From: Anaerolineales bacterium
GTDB lineage: Bacteria > Chloroflexota > Anaerolineae > Anaerolineales > Villigracilaceae
Direction: 5' to 3'
DNA: 55,332 nucleotides
NCBI GenBank assembly: GCA_014860745.1
Contig: JACZJC010000036.1
Coordinates: 1 to 55,332, forward strand
Part shown: piece after piece, positions 15,269 through 21,989 of the stretch
Numbering within the stretch: the stretch's first letter is position 1
Layout: each line of letters opens with the position of its first letter
Notes under the pieces: model-generated
Told to the model about the DNA's origin: nothing
What the model saw: the letters and a program-made list of their open reading frames with translations, nothing else
Database searches by the model: none
Translations under genes and position numbers: made by a program

Positions 15269-15281
15269 TATAATACTTTTA
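15269..15281 (+). promoter_or_regulatory. TATAAT box placed for a leaderless transcript
   Basis: A perfect TATAAT (15269-15274) lies only 6 nt before ATG 15281. No ribosome binding site is visible. Transcription from this box should start at or next to the ATG. No good -35 box is seen. Confidence 0.5.
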
Positions 15282-16162
15282 TGCGTTACGATTTATGCCT
15301 GCCGTGGTATTGGGAATATGACAATGTCTTCGTGGGAATGGTGGAACGGGCCTGCATCGAGGAGGGAATATCACTTTGGCAGATCAAACCCGACAACCTG
15401 CTCGAATCCATCACCGCGCTTTACAAGGGAGTAACCACTTTCAAAACCCTGCTCCACCGCGGGCAGGGAGAACCCATTTTCGACCCAATCCCGCGCTGGG
15501 CACAGGAATTTAACGTACAGCGCATCAACCCTGCCGAGCTCTCTGCCTGGTCTGAAGACAAAGCCACCATGCATCTTGAATTTATCAGCGCCGGGCTGTT
15601 CACCCCGTATACGATTCTGCTTCCACCTTTTCTAGTAGAACCCGTCATCCCGCACATCGACCTCGGGATGCTCGGCGAAAACTTTGTCATCAAACCCTCG
15701 AACGGAGGCGGGGGTGAAGGCGTCATCCTTGGCGCAAACACCATGGCAGAAATTTTGGATGCACGCATGGAATTCCCCGAACAAAAATATCTGGTTCAAG
15801 CGCACATCCTGCCGCGCATCATCGATGAGGCTCCCGCCTGGTTTCGGGTCTTCTATGCAAATGGCGAGACCTACCCCAGCTGGTGGGATCCGGGCACACA
15901 CATATATGCTCCGGTCACAGCGGAGGAAGAGTCTCAGCATCACCTGGGCAATTTGCGGGAAGTGACGAAGCGCATCGCTTCCATCTGCAAACTGGATTGG
16001 TTTTCTACTGAGATCGCCCTTGCTGACGAATTCGTCGTCGTGGATTATGTGAACGATGAAATCGATACACGCGTGCAAAGCCAGGCCATGGACGGAGTGC
16101 CCGATGAAATCATGGAAAATATCGCAAAACAACTTGTAATAATCGCCAAGGAGAATGTATGA
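15281..16162 (+). CDS. ATP-grasp family ligase, substrate unknown
   Basis: 293 residues. The central glycine-rich loop ENFVIKPSNGGGGEGVIL (about 131-148) is the ATP-grasp lysine/glycine-rich segment. FVVVDYVNDEIDTR near residue 254 supplies the acidic and Asn Mg-ATP ligands. The N-terminal part (DLCLPWYWEYDNVFVGMVERACIEEGISLWQI) is the preATP-grasp domain. ATP-grasp enzymes join a carboxylate to an amine, thiol or other nucleophile via an acyl phosphate. The downstream P1 peptidase gene overlaps by 4 nt (ATGA), so the two are coupled. It may belong to the cyclase/methyltransferase cluster that follows, but a separate promoter lies between. Confidence 0.75.
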   Translation: MRYDLCLPWYWEYDNVFVGMVERACIEEGISLWQIKPDNLLESITALYKGVTTFKTLLHRGQGEPIFDPIPRWAQEFNVQRINPAELSAWSEDKATMHLEFISAGLFTPYTILLPPFLVEPVIPHIDLGMLGENFVIKPSNGGGGEGVILGANTMAEILDARMEFPEQKYLVQAHILPRIIDEAPAWFRVFYANGETYPSWWDPGTHIYAPVTAEEESQHHLGNLREVTKRIASICKLDWFSTEIALADEFVVVDYVNDEIDTRVQSQAMDGVPDEIMENIAKQLVIIAKENV

Positions 16163-17235
16163 AGAAGAAGCGCGCCAGGGACCTCGGAATTCCCTTCGAG
16201 GGAGCCCCGGGAAAATTCAATGCAATTACAGATGTGGAGGGCCTGACGGTTGGGTACTCGACCATCATCGCAGGCGAAACGGCGCGGACGGGCGTAACCA
16301 TTATTCACCCGCGCGGGAGTTCGAATAAAACACCTGTTTTTGCAGGGGTTCATTCCTTTAACGGTAACGGCGAAATGACAGGCGCAGCGTGGATCGAGGA
16401 AGGCGGCCTGCTTGAAGGTCCCATCGGTCTGACGAACACCCACAGCGTCGGCATCGTGCGCGACACGATCATCGCCTGGCAGGTGCAACATGATTTTCTG
16501 TACCAACCCTGGTCATGCCCCGTCGTTGCAGAGACAGCCGATGCCTGGCTGAATGACATGAACGGTTTTTTTGTAAAGGCAGAACATGTTATCGAAGCGC
16601 TGGATTCCGCGGCCCCGGGAGAGATCGAGGAGGGCAATGTAGGCGGCGGTACCGGGATGATGTGCTATGAATTCAAGGGCGGGACGGGAACCGCCTCGCG
16701 CAAGCTGCCGGATAAATTCGGAGGCTGGACGGTGGGCGCATTGGCTCAAACCAATTTTGGGAGGCGTCATCAATTGACAATTGCGGGAGTGCCTGTTGGA
16801 CATCATTTAGTTGCCGATACCCCGGTGATAAATGGAGAAAATCCGTACCTACAGGATGACGGTTCGTTGATCGTCATAGTTGCCACGGATGCGCCGCTTC
16901 TCCCCCACCAATTAAAGCGTGTTGCCAAACGGATTTCACTCGGCATGGCACGGACTGGTTCGATTGGGGGGAACGGCTCGGGCGATATTTTCCTGGCATT
17001 CTCCACGGCGAATCCCCAGGCGGCGTACGGCGACGAAAAAGGTTTATCAACCATCCAGGCACTTAACAACGATCACATCGACCCGGTCTTCGCCGCCACC
17101 GCATACGCCACGGAGGAGGCCATCATCAATTCCATGGTCGCAGCAGAGGATATGAAAGGGCATGAACTCAGTGTGAAATCCCTGCCGCACGAAGAGGTTA
17201 GAAACCTGTTGAAGGTCTACAACCGGCTGGGTTAA
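16159..17235 (+). CDS. P1 family peptidase (DmpA/BapA-type aminopeptidase)
   Basis: 358 residues, family S58. Members are self-processing N-terminal nucleophile hydrolases that remove N-terminal D- or beta-amino acids from short peptides. Visible hallmarks are ITDVEGLTVGYSTI, HSFNGNGEMTGAAWIEEGG, TNTHSVGIVRD and GNVGGGTGMMCYEFKGGTGTASR. The processing site is D-D-G235 / S236-LIVIVATDAPL, where Ser236 would become the N-terminal nucleophile of the beta chain. The domain end RTGSIGGNGSGDIFLAF is also conserved. It overlaps the ATP-grasp gene by 4 nt; one enzyme making and one breaking amide bonds is a suggestive pair. Confidence 0.9.
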   Translation: MKKKRARDLGIPFEGAPGKFNAITDVEGLTVGYSTIIAGETARTGVTIIHPRGSSNKTPVFAGVHSFNGNGEMTGAAWIEEGGLLEGPIGLTNTHSVGIVRDTIIAWQVQHDFLYQPWSCPVVAETADAWLNDMNGFFVKAEHVIEALDSAAPGEIEEGNVGGGTGMMCYEFKGGTGTASRKLPDKFGGWTVGALAQTNFGRRHQLTIAGVPVGHHLVADTPVINGENPYLQDDGSLIVIVATDAPLLPHQLKRVAKRISLGMARTGSIGGNGSGDIFLAFSTANPQAAYGDEKGLSTIQALNNDHIDPVFAATAYATEEAIINSMVAAEDMKGHELSVKSLPHEEVRNLLKVYNRLG

Positions 17236-17285: not shown

Positions 17286-17314
17286 TTGACCCAAATCTGT
17301 CATGTAACTAGAAT
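17286..17314 (+). promoter_or_regulatory. Promoter of the cyclase/LuxS/UbiA cluster
   Basis: TTGACC (17286-17291) and TAGAAT (17309-17314) are spaced exactly 17 nt apart. They lie 33 nt before the GTG start of the TIM-barrel gene. This sets the likely 5' end of the cluster. Confidence 0.65.
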
Positions 17315-17346
17315 AGCCGTATTAAGATTTTTCTGGAGCGAAGAAA

Positions 17347-18597
17347 GTGATCAAATTAAGTTACAGCACATTCGGTTTAACAAATTTGGATTTTTTGGAT
17401 GCAATTGACGCAGTGAATATGGCGGGGTACCCAGGAGTGGAGATTTCCTTCCACCGTGACCAATTCAACCCATTCGAAATCACCGATGATTACCTTGCTA
17501 AAATCAAAAAACGGTTTGAGACAACCCGGGTAAAACCTGCCTGTGTTGCAACCGCCTCGCATTTTTTTACACCCTCCCGTCCGCATGAACCCTCCCTCAT
17601 GTGCCTCGAGACAGCCGGCAGGAAGCGTCGCATCAACCTGGTCAAAAGGGGAATCGAAGTTGCCAGAAAACTGGATGTTTCGCTGGTCACATTTGGAAGC
17701 GGATTTATCCGCGACGAGCATGTGGCCAATCCGTCGGTAAATCCACGCGAATTATTGATCGACAGCATCCACCAATGCCTGCGGGAACTGCGCAGCGATG
17801 ATGACATCACCCTGTTGATCGAACCCGAGCCGGGCATGTTCATTGAAACCCTCGATCAAGGCATCGACCTTGTTAACGAGGTGGATTCGCCCAAGTTCAA
17901 GCTGCATTTGGATTTATGCCATAATTATTGTTCAGAAAACGACTATATTTCCGCTCTGAAAAAAGCGGCTCCTCATGCACGCTACCTGCACGTTTCCGAT
18001 GCCCAGGAAGGCTATAACTTAAAAATCGTCAAAAGATCCGAAACGATGTCCATCGACCTGGATTTCGCGGCTTATCTGGTGTACTTCCCTGAAAACGCTG
18101 ATTTCCTTTTGCTTGACCGCAACAACCTCATCTATTTTTACGACGAGCAACCCACCATGAAACAGAAGAAATGGATCGAAGAAATAATGGGCCGGGCGGG
18201 CATCCTGAAATCGGTGACGTACGTCGATTACAACGGCCTGTACGCCGGAACGACTCGATTCGATAATGAGATCTTTGTTTATTTGATTTCGGTCCCGGGA
18301 TTAAGCTTCGATATTTTGGAACGGGCAAGACCCATCATTGCTTATTTAAGAGGAACGAGGGATTCGGAAGGCAGGCCATTGATGGATAAGATGGTCGCCA
18401 ATACGCTTACCGGCATCGTGCATTTCCATGAAATTCCGGGCGAGGGAACCCTCGACTTCGAAGCGAGCTTCAGGGCATTGAACGAAAACGGATTCTCGGG
18501 GTATGCCTCCGTTGAGTTGTATCACCATGTCGCCTCATGGGAAAAAGCCCTGGCAGATAGCTATAAACACCTGTCTCAATACGTTATAGGGAATTAA
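17347..18597 (+). CDS. Sugar phosphate isomerase/epimerase-like TIM barrel with inserted domain
   Basis: 416 residues, starting at GTG 17347 with GGAG 8 nt upstream. The N-terminal part (IKLSYSTFGLTNLDFLDAIDAVNMAGYPGVEIS), E-P-E-P-G-M, DLCHNYC and the metal-site H215 in YLHVSDA follow the xylose-isomerase-like (AP endonuclease 2) barrel. The barrel resumes only at about residue 357 with VHFHEIPGEGTLDFEASFRALNENGFSGYASVELY, the usual last strands. The roughly 135 residues between have no recognised relation; they contain VYFPENADFLLLDRNNLIYFY and GLSFDILERARPIIAYL. Barrels of this type isomerise or epimerise sugars and cyclitols. It is the first gene behind the cluster promoter; a 158-nt gap precedes luxS. 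Confidence 0.75.
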   Translation: MIKLSYSTFGLTNLDFLDAIDAVNMAGYPGVEISFHRDQFNPFEITDDYLAKIKKRFETTRVKPACVATASHFFTPSRPHEPSLMCLETAGRKRRINLVKRGIEVARKLDVSLVTFGSGFIRDEHVANPSVNPRELLIDSIHQCLRELRSDDDITLLIEPEPGMFIETLDQGIDLVNEVDSPKFKLHLDLCHNYCSENDYISALKKAAPHARYLHVSDAQEGYNLKIVKRSETMSIDLDFAAYLVYFPENADFLLLDRNNLIYFYDEQPTMKQKKWIEEIMGRAGILKSVTYVDYNGLYAGTTRFDNEIFVYLISVPGLSFDILERARPIIAYLRGTRDSEGRPLMDKMVANTLTGIVHFHEIPGEGTLDFEASFRALNENGFSGYASVELYHHVASWEKALADSYKHLSQYVIGN

Positions 18598-18755
18598 AAC
18601 CCGAAGCGGAAGAATTCCGATAATGACCGGCCGCACAAACGGGTTTAGAATCGGCATTCTCGAAAAAAATACCCAACGCGCTTATAAAAACCTGCGCTAA
18701 AACCATCACGGCAGGGTATTCCATCAAATCAATAAATCCAATTTAGGAGTTGACC

Positions 18756-19235
18756 ATGTTTCGTCTTGAACAACTTGGCTGGGAGGCCCAAACAATCGGG
18801 GAAATCGACCATCGAAAATTAAAAGCACCTCACGTAAAACTGCGGGCCCTCATTGAAGGCAACAGCGGGGACGCTGTTTATTCTGTCGACCTGCGCATCA
18901 ACCAGCCGAACACCAACTATTTATCGACGACGGAGATGCATTCGTTCGAGCATTTTTTACTTTGGGGGTTTCGAAAATACATGCCGGAGAACTTCATCAG
19001 CGTTGCGCCCATGGGCTGCCAGACGGGTTTCTACCTTATCCTGCTGAACGAAGGCGATGCCCAAAAGATTTGCGATATTTACGAGGCCATCTTAAATGAC
19101 ATCTTAATCGCAAAAGAGGTCCCCTACGCCAATATCAGGGAGTGTGGTCACTTCGAAAATCACAGTTTGGAACTTGCCCAGGGCCTTGCCAGGAAACTCC
19201 TGGATTCCAAATCGAGCTGGCGACAGGTCTTATGA
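18756..19235 (+). CDS. luxS: S-ribosylhomocysteine lyase LuxS
   Basis: 159 residues. All catalytic features of LuxS are in register: DH followed by APHVKLR near the N-terminus, DLRINQPN, metal ligands H62-S-F-E65-H66, catalytic Cys88 in PMGCQTGFYL, and metal ligand Cys130 in ECGHFENHSL. The enzyme splits S-ribosylhomocysteine into homocysteine and DPD, the autoinducer-2 precursor. ATG 18756 has AGGAG (18745-18749) 6 nt upstream. Its stop overlaps the start of the cyclase gene (ATGA, 4 nt). In this setting it may recycle the S-adenosylhomocysteine made by the linked methyltransferase, but the required nucleosidase is not in the window. LuxS is unusual for Chloroflexota, as far as I know. Confidence 0.9.
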   Translation: MFRLEQLGWEAQTIGEIDHRKLKAPHVKLRALIEGNSGDAVYSVDLRINQPNTNYLSTTEMHSFEHFLLWGFRKYMPENFISVAPMGCQTGFYLILLNEGDAQKICDIYEAILNDILIAKEVPYANIRECGHFENHSLELAQGLARKLLDSKSSWRQVL

Positions 19236-20383
19236 CAAGCGGAATGCGCAAATGGCATGTCTCATATCAACGGACCATAGGATACGAAGTTGAGAACTGC
19301 CCTAACATTTTTCATCCACAAAATACCGCGTTATTATCTGTGGGTAAAAGGGAAAACACCCGCAGGTTTGTCGTTGTTGACGGCAATGTGGAAAAGTATT
19401 TTTCGGCCGAGATCAGGAATTATTTTAACGCCCACAAGGTCGATGCAAAGATCGTCACCTTCCGCAGCGGGGAGGAGAACAAGTCTGTAGATAACTATCT
19501 CTGGATCCTGCGTGAATTGGATGCGTTTCCCATCAACCGCAGGGATGAACCCATCATCGCCATCGGCGGCGGCGTTCTCACCGATGTGGTGGGGTTTGTC
19601 GCCAGCAGTTACCGCCGCGGCGTGCCGCATATTAAAATCCCGACAACTTTGATGGGGTATATCGATGCCTCTGTGGGGATCAAGACCGGGGTCAATTTCA
19701 ACGAGAACAAGAATCGGTTGGGCTCGTTCGAGCCTCCCAAAAAAGTCTTTTTGGACAGAGTATTCCTGAAAACTCTGCCAAAGCGCCAGATCCTGAATGG
19801 CGTCTGCGAAATTCTAAAACTTGCCATCATAAAAGACCCGATGCTGTTCGAACTGCTGGAATCCCATGGGGCTGCCTGTGTCGACTCGAAATTTCAGGAT
19901 GAAATTGGCGGATCAATCCTGAACCTTTCCATCGAAGGCATGATCGAGGAATTGGAACCCAATCTATTCGAAGAAAATCTGGCCCGCAAGGTGGACTTCG
20001 GGCACACCTTTAGTTACGGGCTGGAGACGCATCACGACGCTCAATTGCTGCATGGCGAGGCAGTCTTAATTGATATGATCGTTTCTTCGATCCTGGCCAA
20101 GGCGCGGAATCTATTGTCCTGCGAGGAATTAAACCGCATCTTTGATCTGGTCGCCGGACTGGGAATCGTTATCCGCAACGATTTGGTAAGCCCCGAGTTA
20201 TTATGGAATTCCCTGGAGGAGCGCACTTACCACAGAAACGGATTGCAAAGAGTCCCGCTGCCCGCTGGGATCGGGAATTGCACCTTTGTAAACGATATAA
20301 ATTTCGAGGAAATTCAATCTGCATGCAAAATTCTGGAAAATCGGATGGTAATTGATGACACAGTTTACGAATACAGATCATGA
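19232..20383 (+). CDS. Sugar phosphate cyclase (valiolone/dehydroquinate synthase superfamily)
   Basis: 383 residues from ATG 19232. NAD-binding GGGVLTDVVGFVASSYRRGVPHIKIPTTL is followed by VGIKTGVNFNENKNRLGSFEPP, which is closer to 2-epi-5-epi-valiolone synthases than to AroB (SVGGKTGVNH..GKNLIG). Zinc ligands fall at E193, H258 and H274, the DHQS positions. Such enzymes cyclise sugar phosphates; sedoheptulose 7-phosphate is the likely substrate by resemblance, DAHP the alternative. It overlaps luxS by 4 nt and the methyltransferase gene by 29 nt, so tight co-expression is certain in design. A related cyclase-like protein, EboD, occurs in ebo clusters. Confidence 0.85.
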   Translation: MTSGMRKWHVSYQRTIGYEVENCPNIFHPQNTALLSVGKRENTRRFVVVDGNVEKYFSAEIRNYFNAHKVDAKIVTFRSGEENKSVDNYLWILRELDAFPINRRDEPIIAIGGGVLTDVVGFVASSYRRGVPHIKIPTTLMGYIDASVGIKTGVNFNENKNRLGSFEPPKKVFLDRVFLKTLPKRQILNGVCEILKLAIIKDPMLFELLESHGAACVDSKFQDEIGGSILNLSIEGMIEELEPNLFEENLARKVDFGHTFSYGLETHHDAQLLHGEAVLIDMIVSSILAKARNLLSCEELNRIFDLVAGLGIVIRNDLVSPELLWNSLEERTYHRNGLQRVPLPAGIGNCTFVNDINFEEIQSACKILENRMVIDDTVYEYRS

Positions 20384-21062
20384 AGAAATAAAGAAGTTCG
20401 ATAATGTTGCCGATATTTGGTGGGACCCAAAAGGTTCCATGGGCACGCTGCATACCATCAATCCTTTGCGCACGAAATTCATTACAGATAAAGTGAATAT
20501 TCACGAACGCGCGGTCCTCGACGTGGGCTGCGGCGGCGGGATCTTAACGGAAGCCCTGGCAAAAGCTGGGGCAAGGGTCGTTGGGATCGATCTTTCCGAA
20601 GCGTCACTGGAGGCGGCAAGACTGCATGCCAGTCAGCAGGGCCTGCAAAACATCGAATATCGATACGAAAGCATCGAAAATGTCGCCGAAAAACATGCGG
20701 GCGAATTCGATGTTGTCACCTGCATGGAAATGCTGGAACATGTCCCAGAGCCGGATAAAACCATCGCTATCTGCGCACAGTTGCTGAAGCCGGGCGGCCA
20801 TGCTTTTTTTTCCACCATCAACCGCACTCCCAAGGCATTTTTATTCGCGATCATCGGCGGCGAATACATTCTGCATCTCCTGCCGAAGGGCACGCACACA
20901 TATAAAAAATTGATCCGCCCCAGCGAATTGAAAAAGTGGACCCGCGAAAGCGGGCTTGAATTCCAGCATCTTGCCAGCCTCATGTACAACCCTTTCAACA
21001 GGAAATTCAAGGTGGAAGAAAAAGAAGACGTAAATTACATGGCGCATTTTGTCAAAAAATAA
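20355..21062 (+). CDS. UbiG-like SAM-dependent O-methyltransferase
   Basis: 235 residues. Motif I is VLDVGCGGGILTEALAKAGARVVGIDLS and motif II is FDVVTCMEMLEHVPEPD; FFSTINRTPKAFLFAIIGGEYILHLLPKGTH is the membrane-associating UbiG insertion. The ends also match: DHEEIKKFDNVADIWWDPKG and DVNYMAHFVKK. The resemblance to proteobacterial UbiG is unusually close, yet Chloroflexota do not make ubiquinone and no other ubi gene except a UbiA homologue is present. The methyl acceptor is probably the cyclic product of the neighbouring cyclase or its prenylated form. ATG 20355 is chosen over TTG 20352. Confidence 0.9.
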   Translation: MTQFTNTDHEEIKKFDNVADIWWDPKGSMGTLHTINPLRTKFITDKVNIHERAVLDVGCGGGILTEALAKAGARVVGIDLSEASLEAARLHASQQGLQNIEYRYESIENVAEKHAGEFDVVTCMEMLEHVPEPDKTIAICAQLLKPGGHAFFSTINRTPKAFLFAIIGGEYILHLLPKGTHTYKKLIRPSELKKWTRESGLEFQHLASLMYNPFNRKFKVEEKEDVNYMAHFVKK

Positions 21063-21083
21063 TTTTCGAATAAGGCGTACCCC

Positions 21084-21989
21084 ATGAAACGATTTTTTGC
21101 ATTATCGAGAACCACGCACGGCGTATTGGACCTGGCTACTCCCGCCTTTTGCGCGCTGCTATGGTCGGGTAGTTTTCCTCACTGGACGGTCATCCTGCTT
21201 TCGATATTTACAGCCTTCGCTGCATACACCGCCATCTATGCCCTTAATGACCTGGTCGGTGTAACGGTGGACCGGGAAAAATTTACCGGCGGCGAACGAA
21301 ACCCAGGATATTCCGTGGAAGCTTCCGAACAGAGATACCCGCTCGCGCAAAATATATTAAGTTACAAAAGCGGCCTGCTCTGGATGGGAACCTGGTTCAT
21401 ATTGGCGATGATCGGGTCCTATTTATTGAATCCAGTCATTGTATTCATCCTTCTCGCTGCCGCTGTATTGGAAGTTGTATACTGCCTTTTGCTCAAGGTC
21501 ACCTACCTGCGGACTTTTGTAAGCGGCCTCGTCAAAGCGAGTGGTCCCATTGCAGCTGTATTTGTTGTGGACGCGAATCCATTTCCATATCATTTATTGC
21601 TGCTTTTCGGCTGGATATTCTTCTGGGAAATCGGCGGCCAAAACATACCGGCAGACTGGAACGACACCGCGGAAGACAGGCGCGTCCATGCGAAAACAAT
21701 ACCCATTCGATTCGGCGTAGAGAAAGCGGGGCTTATCGTAATCGCAACCCTCGCAGTGACGGTGATCATCAGCAGCTTCCTGCCCCTGGTTTCACCAGCC
21801 AACCTTGGCCTGCCTTATATACTTGCGAGTTTGACCGCTGGATTCATTTTTCTTCTTCAGCCGGGCTATCAACTTTACAAGCAAAAGGATGGCCCCCACG
21901 CCGCCAAATTGTTCGATAGGGCAAGTTTTTATCCGATGGCACAGTTCGTGATCGTTTCTTTTTTTATTGCAGCCAATATGCTTGCATAA
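21084..21989 (+). CDS. UbiA family prenyltransferase
   Basis: 301 residues with eight to nine hydrophobic segments. The two Mg-diphosphate motifs are NDLVGVTVD (about 54-62, with Gly replacing the usual middle Asp) and DWNDTAEDRRVHAKTIPIRFG (about 192-212). The enzyme transfers an isoprenoid chain from its diphosphate to an acceptor in the membrane. It follows the UbiG-like gene by 21 nt. A UbiA homologue (EboC) with a cyclase-like protein (EboD) is also the core of ebo clusters. The acceptor is unknown; a cyclitol derivative is inferred from context. Confidence 0.9.
   Translation: MKRFFALSRTTHGVLDLATPAFCALLWSGSFPHWTVILLSIFTAFAAYTAIYALNDLVGVTVDREKFTGGERNPGYSVEASEQRYPLAQNILSYKSGLLWMGTWFILAMIGSYLLNPVIVFILLAAAVLEVVYCLLLKVTYLRTFVSGLVKASGPIAAVFVVDANPFPYHLLLLFGWIFFWEIGGQNIPADWNDTAEDRRVHAKTIPIRFGVEKAGLIVIATLAVTVIISSFLPLVSPANLGLPYILASLTAGFIFLLQPGYQLYKQKDGPHAAKLFDRASFYPMAQFVIVSFFIAANMLA

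Follow-up and report, generated by a model that had tools for sequence, protein, structure and literature searches.

Why should a gene for a LuxS-family protein stand between genes for a xylose-isomerase-like TIM-barrel protein and a sugar phosphate cyclase, with genes for a UbiG-family methyltransferase and a UbiA-family prenyltransferase directly behind them, and what could such a set of enzymes make? This is the question raised by positions 17,286 to 21,989 of a 55,332-nucleotide stretch of an Anaerolineales bacterium (contig JACZJC010000036.1; here C58 of a 4.3 Mb draft genome), the whole of which we call the window. The reading that we favour, with moderate confidence, is that the five genes form a mobile cassette, passed from phylum to phylum, whose enzymes build a ring lipid with a prenyl chain and an O-methyl group; the precursors would be sedoheptulose 7-phosphate, a prenyl diphosphate and S-adenosylmethionine (SAM). 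The features of the locus are as follows.

17286..17314, + strand: promoter-like match TTGACC-17-TAGAAT, agreeing with the consensus at 10/12 positions, the best of the region
17347..18597, + strand: xylose-isomerase-like TIM-barrel protein, 416 amino acids, GTG start; E159/D189/H215/E390 invariant in 40 rows
18016..18417, + strand: insertion within the TIM-barrel protein (residues about 224-357; alignment of 23 rows)
18756..19235, + strand: LuxS-family protein, 159 amino acids, ATG start; HxxEH, both catalytic/metal Cys and the H11/R39 equivalents kept, F7/D78 equivalents lost
19232..20383, + strand: sedoheptulose-7-phosphate-cyclase-family protein, 383 amino acids, ATG start; in a clade of its own beside the 2-epi-5-epi-valiolone synthases (EEVS) and demethyl-deoxygadusol synthases (DDGS)
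20355..21062, + strand: UbiG-family O-methyltransferase, 235 amino acids, ATG start; 283 bits on TIGR01983 (cut-off 103)
21084..21989, + strand: UbiA-family membrane prenyltransferase, 301 amino acids, ATG start; N55-D56...D63 and D191..D194...D198 invariant in 32 rows

The first observation is the conservation of these genes together. A scan of named genomes with two peptides of the TIM-barrel protein yielded 121 candidate stretches; these came down to 82 relatives and, finally, to 80 loci that were kept. The genes for the TIM-barrel protein, LuxS, the cyclase, UbiG and UbiA occur in identical order and strand in 74 of these 80 loci; of the remaining six, five are truncated where their contigs end, and the last (L074, corresponding to G009:C75) lacks UbiG inside a long contig, being the sole intact-contig cassette of the 80 to do so. 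The genome of L074 has a UbiG-family gene elsewhere (G009:C95:43376-43987; 175.7 bits, 40% identical to the UbiG of the window). Protein distances of all ten gene pairs correlate across 66 loci (r 0.80-0.87), and none of 500 permutations reached any of these values. The same picture was obtained with the cyclase as an anchor, in a set made of 60 relatives and the own genome (61 in all: 37 of the same genus, the own one included, and 24 of other genera). A cyclase orthologue was present in 18 same-genus genomes besides the own one and in 0/24 genomes of other genera, and 17 of the 18 same-genus loci hold all five genes. The preliminary description of this locus had proposed a cluster of exactly these five genes in this order; open reading frame (ORF) and profile evidence bears out each gene, and many other genomes carry all five. 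The five genes are thus one unit, and their grouping is far beyond chance.

The limits of this unit are equally clear. ORFs from the 80 loci were clustered (40 families printed, the largest re-examined), and no conserved sixth gene was found in this clustering. Families 0-4 are the five cassette genes, while families 5-8 and 10 (21, 14, 11, 10 and 6 loci) are, in the members printed, minus-strand frames lying over cassette genes. The commonest real flank family, an ABC-transporter ATPase, occurs in 8/80 loci from three phyla, and the remaining families in at most 5 loci each. This ATPase family (L042, L043, L049, L064, L070, L112, L113 and L117) varies in its distance and strand, and is probably merely a common superfamily. 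A few loci are irregular in themselves: isolate CFX11 (L040 / L054) has its cyclase in three frame pieces, with a stop within the UbiA stretch of L040, which is either assembly error or decay, and in Mycobacterium simulans (L113, 8001-9355) the TIM protein was matched as two pieces about 107 bases apart.

Within the window, the genes for LuxS and the cyclase overlap by 4 nucleotides and those for the cyclase and UbiG by 29, exactly as had been described; among the 74 complete loci, the first overlap recurs in 28 and the second in 20. The TIM and LuxS genes are separated by 158 nucleotides, with a second, weak promoter-like match at 18623, so that a single transcript for all five genes remains putative. 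The promoter-like match in front of the TIM gene, which the preliminary description called good, is indeed the region's best, yet such sites are not enriched (6 in the region versus 8.6 +/- 2.4 in shuffled sequence). No Rfam element reached its gathering score between 15 and 24 kb of the window.

How far has this unit spread? Among the TIM-anchored loci, the carriers in Chloroflexota are Anaerolineales. Gammaproteobacteria (Xanthomonadales included) are represented by Rhodanobacter, Thermomonas, Luteimonas, Lysobacter, Dokdonella and strain HdN1, Betaproteobacteria (Burkholderiales included) by Comamonas and Castellaniella, among others; three Mycobacterium species are carriers as well. For the two Mycobacterium cassettes in the 66-locus set, the nearest cassettes outside Mycobacterium are those of Chloroflexota, at 70-71% mean identity, which points to transfer between phyla. 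Carriage is nevertheless uncommon. A draw of 400 Chloroflexota genomes had the cyclase in 12 genomes of one family (the own genome included) at at least 62% identity, plus one 33% match, and in a draw of 398 Pseudomonadota genomes the centre genome alone matched the cyclase at an E-value (E) of 1e-50. Such rare and patchy occurrence fits a mobile trait. Collinearity, correlated distances and the lack of a conserved sixth gene together argue for a horizontally moved cassette. No plasmid record contained the TIM protein at E 1e-20. We observed, as a separate matter, that the Rhizobium rhizogenes plasmid pC6.5b (L136) and an Agrobacterium vitis plasmid (L135) carry other clusters around a sedoheptulose-7-phosphate cyclase gene, in which it is accompanied by ROK-family genes and by genes for TIM-barrel proteins or sugar-phosphate isomerases; LuxS is not annotated in the stretches shown.

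The cyclase would act first in the proposed pathway. Its nearest solved structures are 4p53 (ValA, 316 bits) and 5tpr (235 bits; labelled 3-dehydroquinate synthase in PDB, and which we take to be a DDGS), and AroB chains score 154 bits at most. We built a tree of 42 rows, including a 31-row sedoheptulose-7-phosphate cyclase group (24 of them from cassettes), four EboD-type rows (eboE is annotated at the loci of three, and a TatD gene adjoins the fourth) and six AroB rows, one of which comes from the own genome. All 24 cassette cyclases are monophyletic (100/99) and fall inside the sedoheptulose-7-phosphate cyclase group (99/93), and EboD (100/100) and AroB (100/97) are separate clades. The earlier placement of this protein nearer to valiolone synthases than to AroB is therefore upheld by structure-match scores and tree alike; it lies outside both AroB and EboD. 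By placement, the cassette cyclases are a new subfamily of sedoheptulose-7-phosphate cyclases. At alignment columns chosen by us, D255 and E276 are as in ValA, and Y262 and K135 replace the Pro and Arg of ValA, respectively. Column 255 is Asp in the cassette proteins and in EEVS and EboD, Asn in the AroB rows and Ala in DDGS, and column 262 is Tyr in the cassette proteins, Pro in EEVS/DDGS and His in AroB/EboD.

The TIM-barrel protein gave a confident AlphaFold model (predicted local distance difference test, pLDDT, of 93), and its best structural matches are ketose 3-epimerases (against 5h1w: Z 30.2 over 255 residues, root-mean-square deviation, rmsd, 2.3). The four invariant residues of its E-D-H-E set are presumably metal ligands, judging from the family. 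AsbF, which we take to be a dehydratase of the same superfamily, is a weak sequence match. Epimerisation, isomerisation and dehydration are thus all open as candidate activities. The inserted domain has a predicted fold of its own (pLDDT 86.5) and no match in PDB at E 0.001; the best Z on a second look was 6.8 (104 residues, rmsd 5.1), to a ubiquitin-like-protease fold, which is within the range of common arrangements.

The last two enzymes belong clearly to their families. UbiG scores 283.4 bits against the TIGR01983 equivalog cut-off of 102.95, which does not imply a role in ubiquinone synthesis, and its residues 6-232 of 235 align with the solved 4kdc, a 3-demethylubiquinone-9 3-methyltransferase. 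No protein reached the TIGR01983 cut-off in the two genus non-carriers searched. UbiA exceeds the PF01040 gathering score (102.2 versus 34.2 bits), and the invariant residues N55, D56, D63, D191, D194 and D198 make up its two Asp-rich motifs; it had no sequence match in PDB at E 0.01. The own genome has 10 UbiA-family matches in all at E 1e-3, so the cassette UbiA is an extra one.

The LuxS-family protein is the most unusual member of the set. It passes the PF02664 gathering score (119.1 versus 27 bits) and stays below the curated NCBIfam cut-offs (best 130.7 versus 208, PRK02260.2-4; 0/10 listed models reached). Its occurrence follows the cassette strictly: exactly one LuxS per genome, the cassette gene, was found in 50/50 carriers examined, and among the 61 relatives LuxS is present in 19/19 carriers and 0/42 non-carriers. 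When 32 cassette proteins were compared with seven reference LuxS proteins, HxxEH, both Cys (C84/C126 equivalents) and the H11 and R39 equivalents were kept in all 32. Phe7, by contrast, is present in 7/7 references and 0/32 cassette proteins, and Asp78 and Ser80 each in 6/7 and 0/32. This pattern says that the cassette LuxS would have a working metal site and a partly altered substrate side, and is tied to the cassette.

Taken together, these families suggest a pathway, from which we infer both the final product of the cassette and the substrate of its LuxS. The cyclase would close sedoheptulose 7-phosphate to a C7 keto-cyclitol, for instance 2-epi-5-epi-valiolone. The TIM protein, a member of the ketose 3-epimerase/isomerase/dehydratase superfamily, and LuxS may then remodel the ring by isomerisation and elimination of water; the end point might be a ring of aromatic or enediol type. 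UbiA would add a prenyl chain to this acceptor, and UbiG would O-methylate the membrane-bound product. A methylated, prenylated cyclitol agrees with the enzyme families, and an aromatised, quinone-like ring is possible too. BE-40644 of Actinoplanes, where an EEVS acts with a UbiA-family farnesyltransferase, is an earlier example of an EEVS-derived ring that ends up prenylated (PMC5133447, section 3.7). Both systems pair a sedoheptulose-7-phosphate cyclase with a UbiA-superfamily prenyltransferase towards a cyclitol-isoprenoid hybrid, whereas LuxS and UbiG are not named in that section's account of BE-40644, a comparison made by description only. The gadusol pathway of vertebrates (EEVS and MT-Ox) likewise passes the EEVS product to a SAM-dependent methyltransferase; it differs in that its methyltransferase is fused to an oxidoreductase domain and that gadusol is described, as far as the sections of PMC4426668 at hand go, without prenylation or LuxS. 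We see the cassette as a variant on prenylated-cyclitol biosynthesis; it would count as a kind of its own if its LuxS had a new reaction.

It needs to be said that several points speak against this reading. The proposed product and activities come from sequence and predicted structure. Tyr262 replaces the Pro of EEVS/DDGS, so the cyclase product may not be 2-epi-5-epi-valiolone, and Asp255 is common to EEVS but also to EboD. Because the TIM protein structurally matches epimerases first, a dehydratase role is one option only. As to LuxS, one reference protein, that of Monoglobus, is also without Asp78 and Ser80, and the N-terminal alignment at Phe7 includes a gap, which makes this column less sure. 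Glu57 is kept in 32/32 cassette proteins and position 65 is Arg in 22, Lys in 8 and another residue in 2; two of the three residues named as substrate-binding (Glu57, Arg65 and Asp78, next to a Phe conserved in all families; PMC2656534, in the part available) are kept or nearly so. The model used for the S-adenosylhomocysteine (SAH) nucleosidase may miss divergent enzymes, and most carriers are draft or metagenome genomes. Finally, the 80 loci are all anchored on the TIM protein, which makes the scan blind to clusters without it, and one carrier, L074, has a cassette without UbiG.

The alternative that survives best leaves the methylated, prenylated cyclitol in place and differs in LuxS only. 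On one hand, LuxS might be canonical, cleaving S-ribosylhomocysteine derived from the SAH that UbiG releases and thereby locally relieving product inhibition, perhaps with autoinducer 2 (AI-2) as a by-product. Its fold and its metal and catalytic residues are intact, Glu57 (32/32) and Arg or Lys at position 65 (30/32) are retained, a SAM-dependent methyltransferase is encoded in the same operon, and some carriers, the three Mycobacterium species among them, have an SAH nucleosidase over cut-off. On the other hand, SahH is present in 49/50 carriers. The SAH nucleosidase, which is required for making S-ribosylhomocysteine, exceeds its cut-off in 10/50 carriers only (37/50, those 10 included, have any match at E 1e-3 or better), and is thus below it in 40/50. 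Nor does it follow the cassette: within the genus it occurs in 7/19 carriers and 4/18 non-carriers, which is no association, and it is not encoded by any of the five genes. In HdN1, a complete genome by the title of its record, LuxS and SahH are present and nothing matched the nucleosidase at E 1e-3. The loss of Phe7 and Asp78 speaks against this alternative as well, and there would be little need for a canonical, SAH-clearing role. The cassette protein and canonical LuxS (S-ribosylhomocysteinase) share their fold family, HxxEH, both Cys, the H11/R39 equivalents, Glu57 and mostly Arg65, and they differ in that the cassette copy lives in hosts with SahH, lacks Phe7 and Asp78 throughout and is the only LuxS of the genomes searched. 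A canonical LuxS is therefore an explanation which we doubt and still take seriously; on the reading that we favour, the cassette LuxS is dedicated to the cassette and probably not there for SAH recycling.

If LuxS is so dedicated, what might it do? Known LuxS chemistry consists of carbonyl migration and beta-elimination. A bolder form of the reading that we favour is that LuxS has gone from S-ribosylhomocysteine and the methyl cycle altogether, and shifts the carbonyl and eliminates water on a C7 cyclitol. With the TIM protein it might aromatise the ring to a catechol or enediol able to accept a prenyl chain, from which UbiA and UbiG would make a methoxy-quinol resembling ubiquinone, with a ring of other than chorismate origin. 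The pair of UbiG and UbiA, along with two enzymes that might eliminate water, fits such a chorismate-free, quinone-like lipid. We offer this only tentatively, and hold it a shade less probable than a canonical LuxS. If true, the cassette would amount to five transferable genes for making a new membrane redox lipid.

Another idea is that LuxS supplies part of the final molecule: its product 4,5-dihydroxy-2,3-pentanedione (DPD) would be coupled to the cyclitol or undergo remodelling by the TIM isomerase. LuxS does adjoin a ketose-epimerase-like enzyme, and it is missing only at a contig end (L046). DPD, however, needs S-ribosylhomocysteine, whose maker is below cut-off in most carriers as given above, and the five genes include no ligase or kinase; we regard this as improbable.

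The nearest published idea to the cassette is the ebo operon (eboABCDEF; PMC5133447, PMC9235831), and one may ask whether the cluster is a divergent member of it, with the cyclase as EboD, the TIM protein as EboE and UbiA as EboC. The same three superfamilies do occur in ebo (PMC5133447, as far as it was available), the stretch IEPEP is common to the TIM protein and EboE (hhalign probability 46, 48 columns), the cyclase has Asp255 in common with EboD, and Tyr52/Arg143 of UbiA are placed, by eye, like the Tyr56/Arg145 that the accessible text of PMC9235831 describes for EboC-type enzymes. In the tree, however, the cyclase groups with EEVS/DDGS, away from the fully supported EboD clade. On the EboE model NF035939 the TIM protein reaches 15.6 bits where 250 are required, and the comparison of UbiA with EboC-type enzymes gave an hhalign probability of 0.2 (with a shallow profile of three EboC-type rows). 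A constant EboA, EboB or EboF is absent too, since the five genes have no conserved companion, and LuxS and UbiG, present in the cassette, are additional to the ebo set as described. Membership in ebo is thus rejected for the cyclase by the tree and for the TIM protein by the EboE score, though UbiA by itself might still be of the EboC type; this sustains the contrast with ebo drawn in the preliminary description and makes a divergent ebo operon very improbable. As for ordinary shikimate and quinone genes (AroB, UbiG and UbiA) grouped by accident, which automatic labels and 224.1 bits on the AroB model TIGR01357 might suggest, this is refuted, and its probability practically nil, by a score below the cut-off of 305, a separate AroB on contig C74 of the own genome, a tree that excludes AroB and the conservation of the cassette across phyla.

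The surroundings of the cassette add some observations of their own. The genes flanking it in the window seem unrelated: upstream lies one for a peptidase of family S58, and downstream, on the opposite strand, one for an ABC-F protein. The former (16159-17235, 380 bits) lies directly upstream and overlaps a weak ATP-grasp-like ORF (15281-16162); both ORFs also occur in L023, and at E 1e-5 they were not found in the other 18 loci compared, some of which are short contigs. Rhodanobacter, Thermomonas, Comamonas and Castellaniella, the genera of several carriers, include denitrifiers. Within the genus (G000-G036), a full-length NirS (E < 1e-80) was found in 7/19 cassette carriers and 1/18 non-carriers (Fisher p 0.042, uncorrected for multiple testing or kinship), and in G032 (G032:C74:18889-20061) NirS lies about 1.9 kb from the cassette UbiA. 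A link between the cassette and denitrification is too weak to build on. Five ORFs with matching annotations and order (xylose isomerase-like, LuxS, EEVS, UbiG, UbiA) are listed beside nirS in SURF MAG 42 (PMC8756737, Table A1). That listing, in the part of the source available, is a neighbourhood list only and does not treat conservation, spread or function as those of a unit. Beyond it, we found no published description of the cluster as a unit, in a search that reached few subscription papers.

What, then, does this cassette mean for its hosts and for the LuxS family? The presence of LuxS is commonly taken to indicate AI-2 signalling and a Pfs/LuxS methyl cycle. In these bacteria LuxS comes with the cassette and not otherwise, SahH is there already, and most carriers have no nucleosidase that exceeds its cut-off, so that to have luxS would not mean to make AI-2. 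If the chemistry is as we propose, the cassette would be a compact, horizontally spread route to a prenylated, methylated ring lipid in environmental bacteria and in three mycobacteria.

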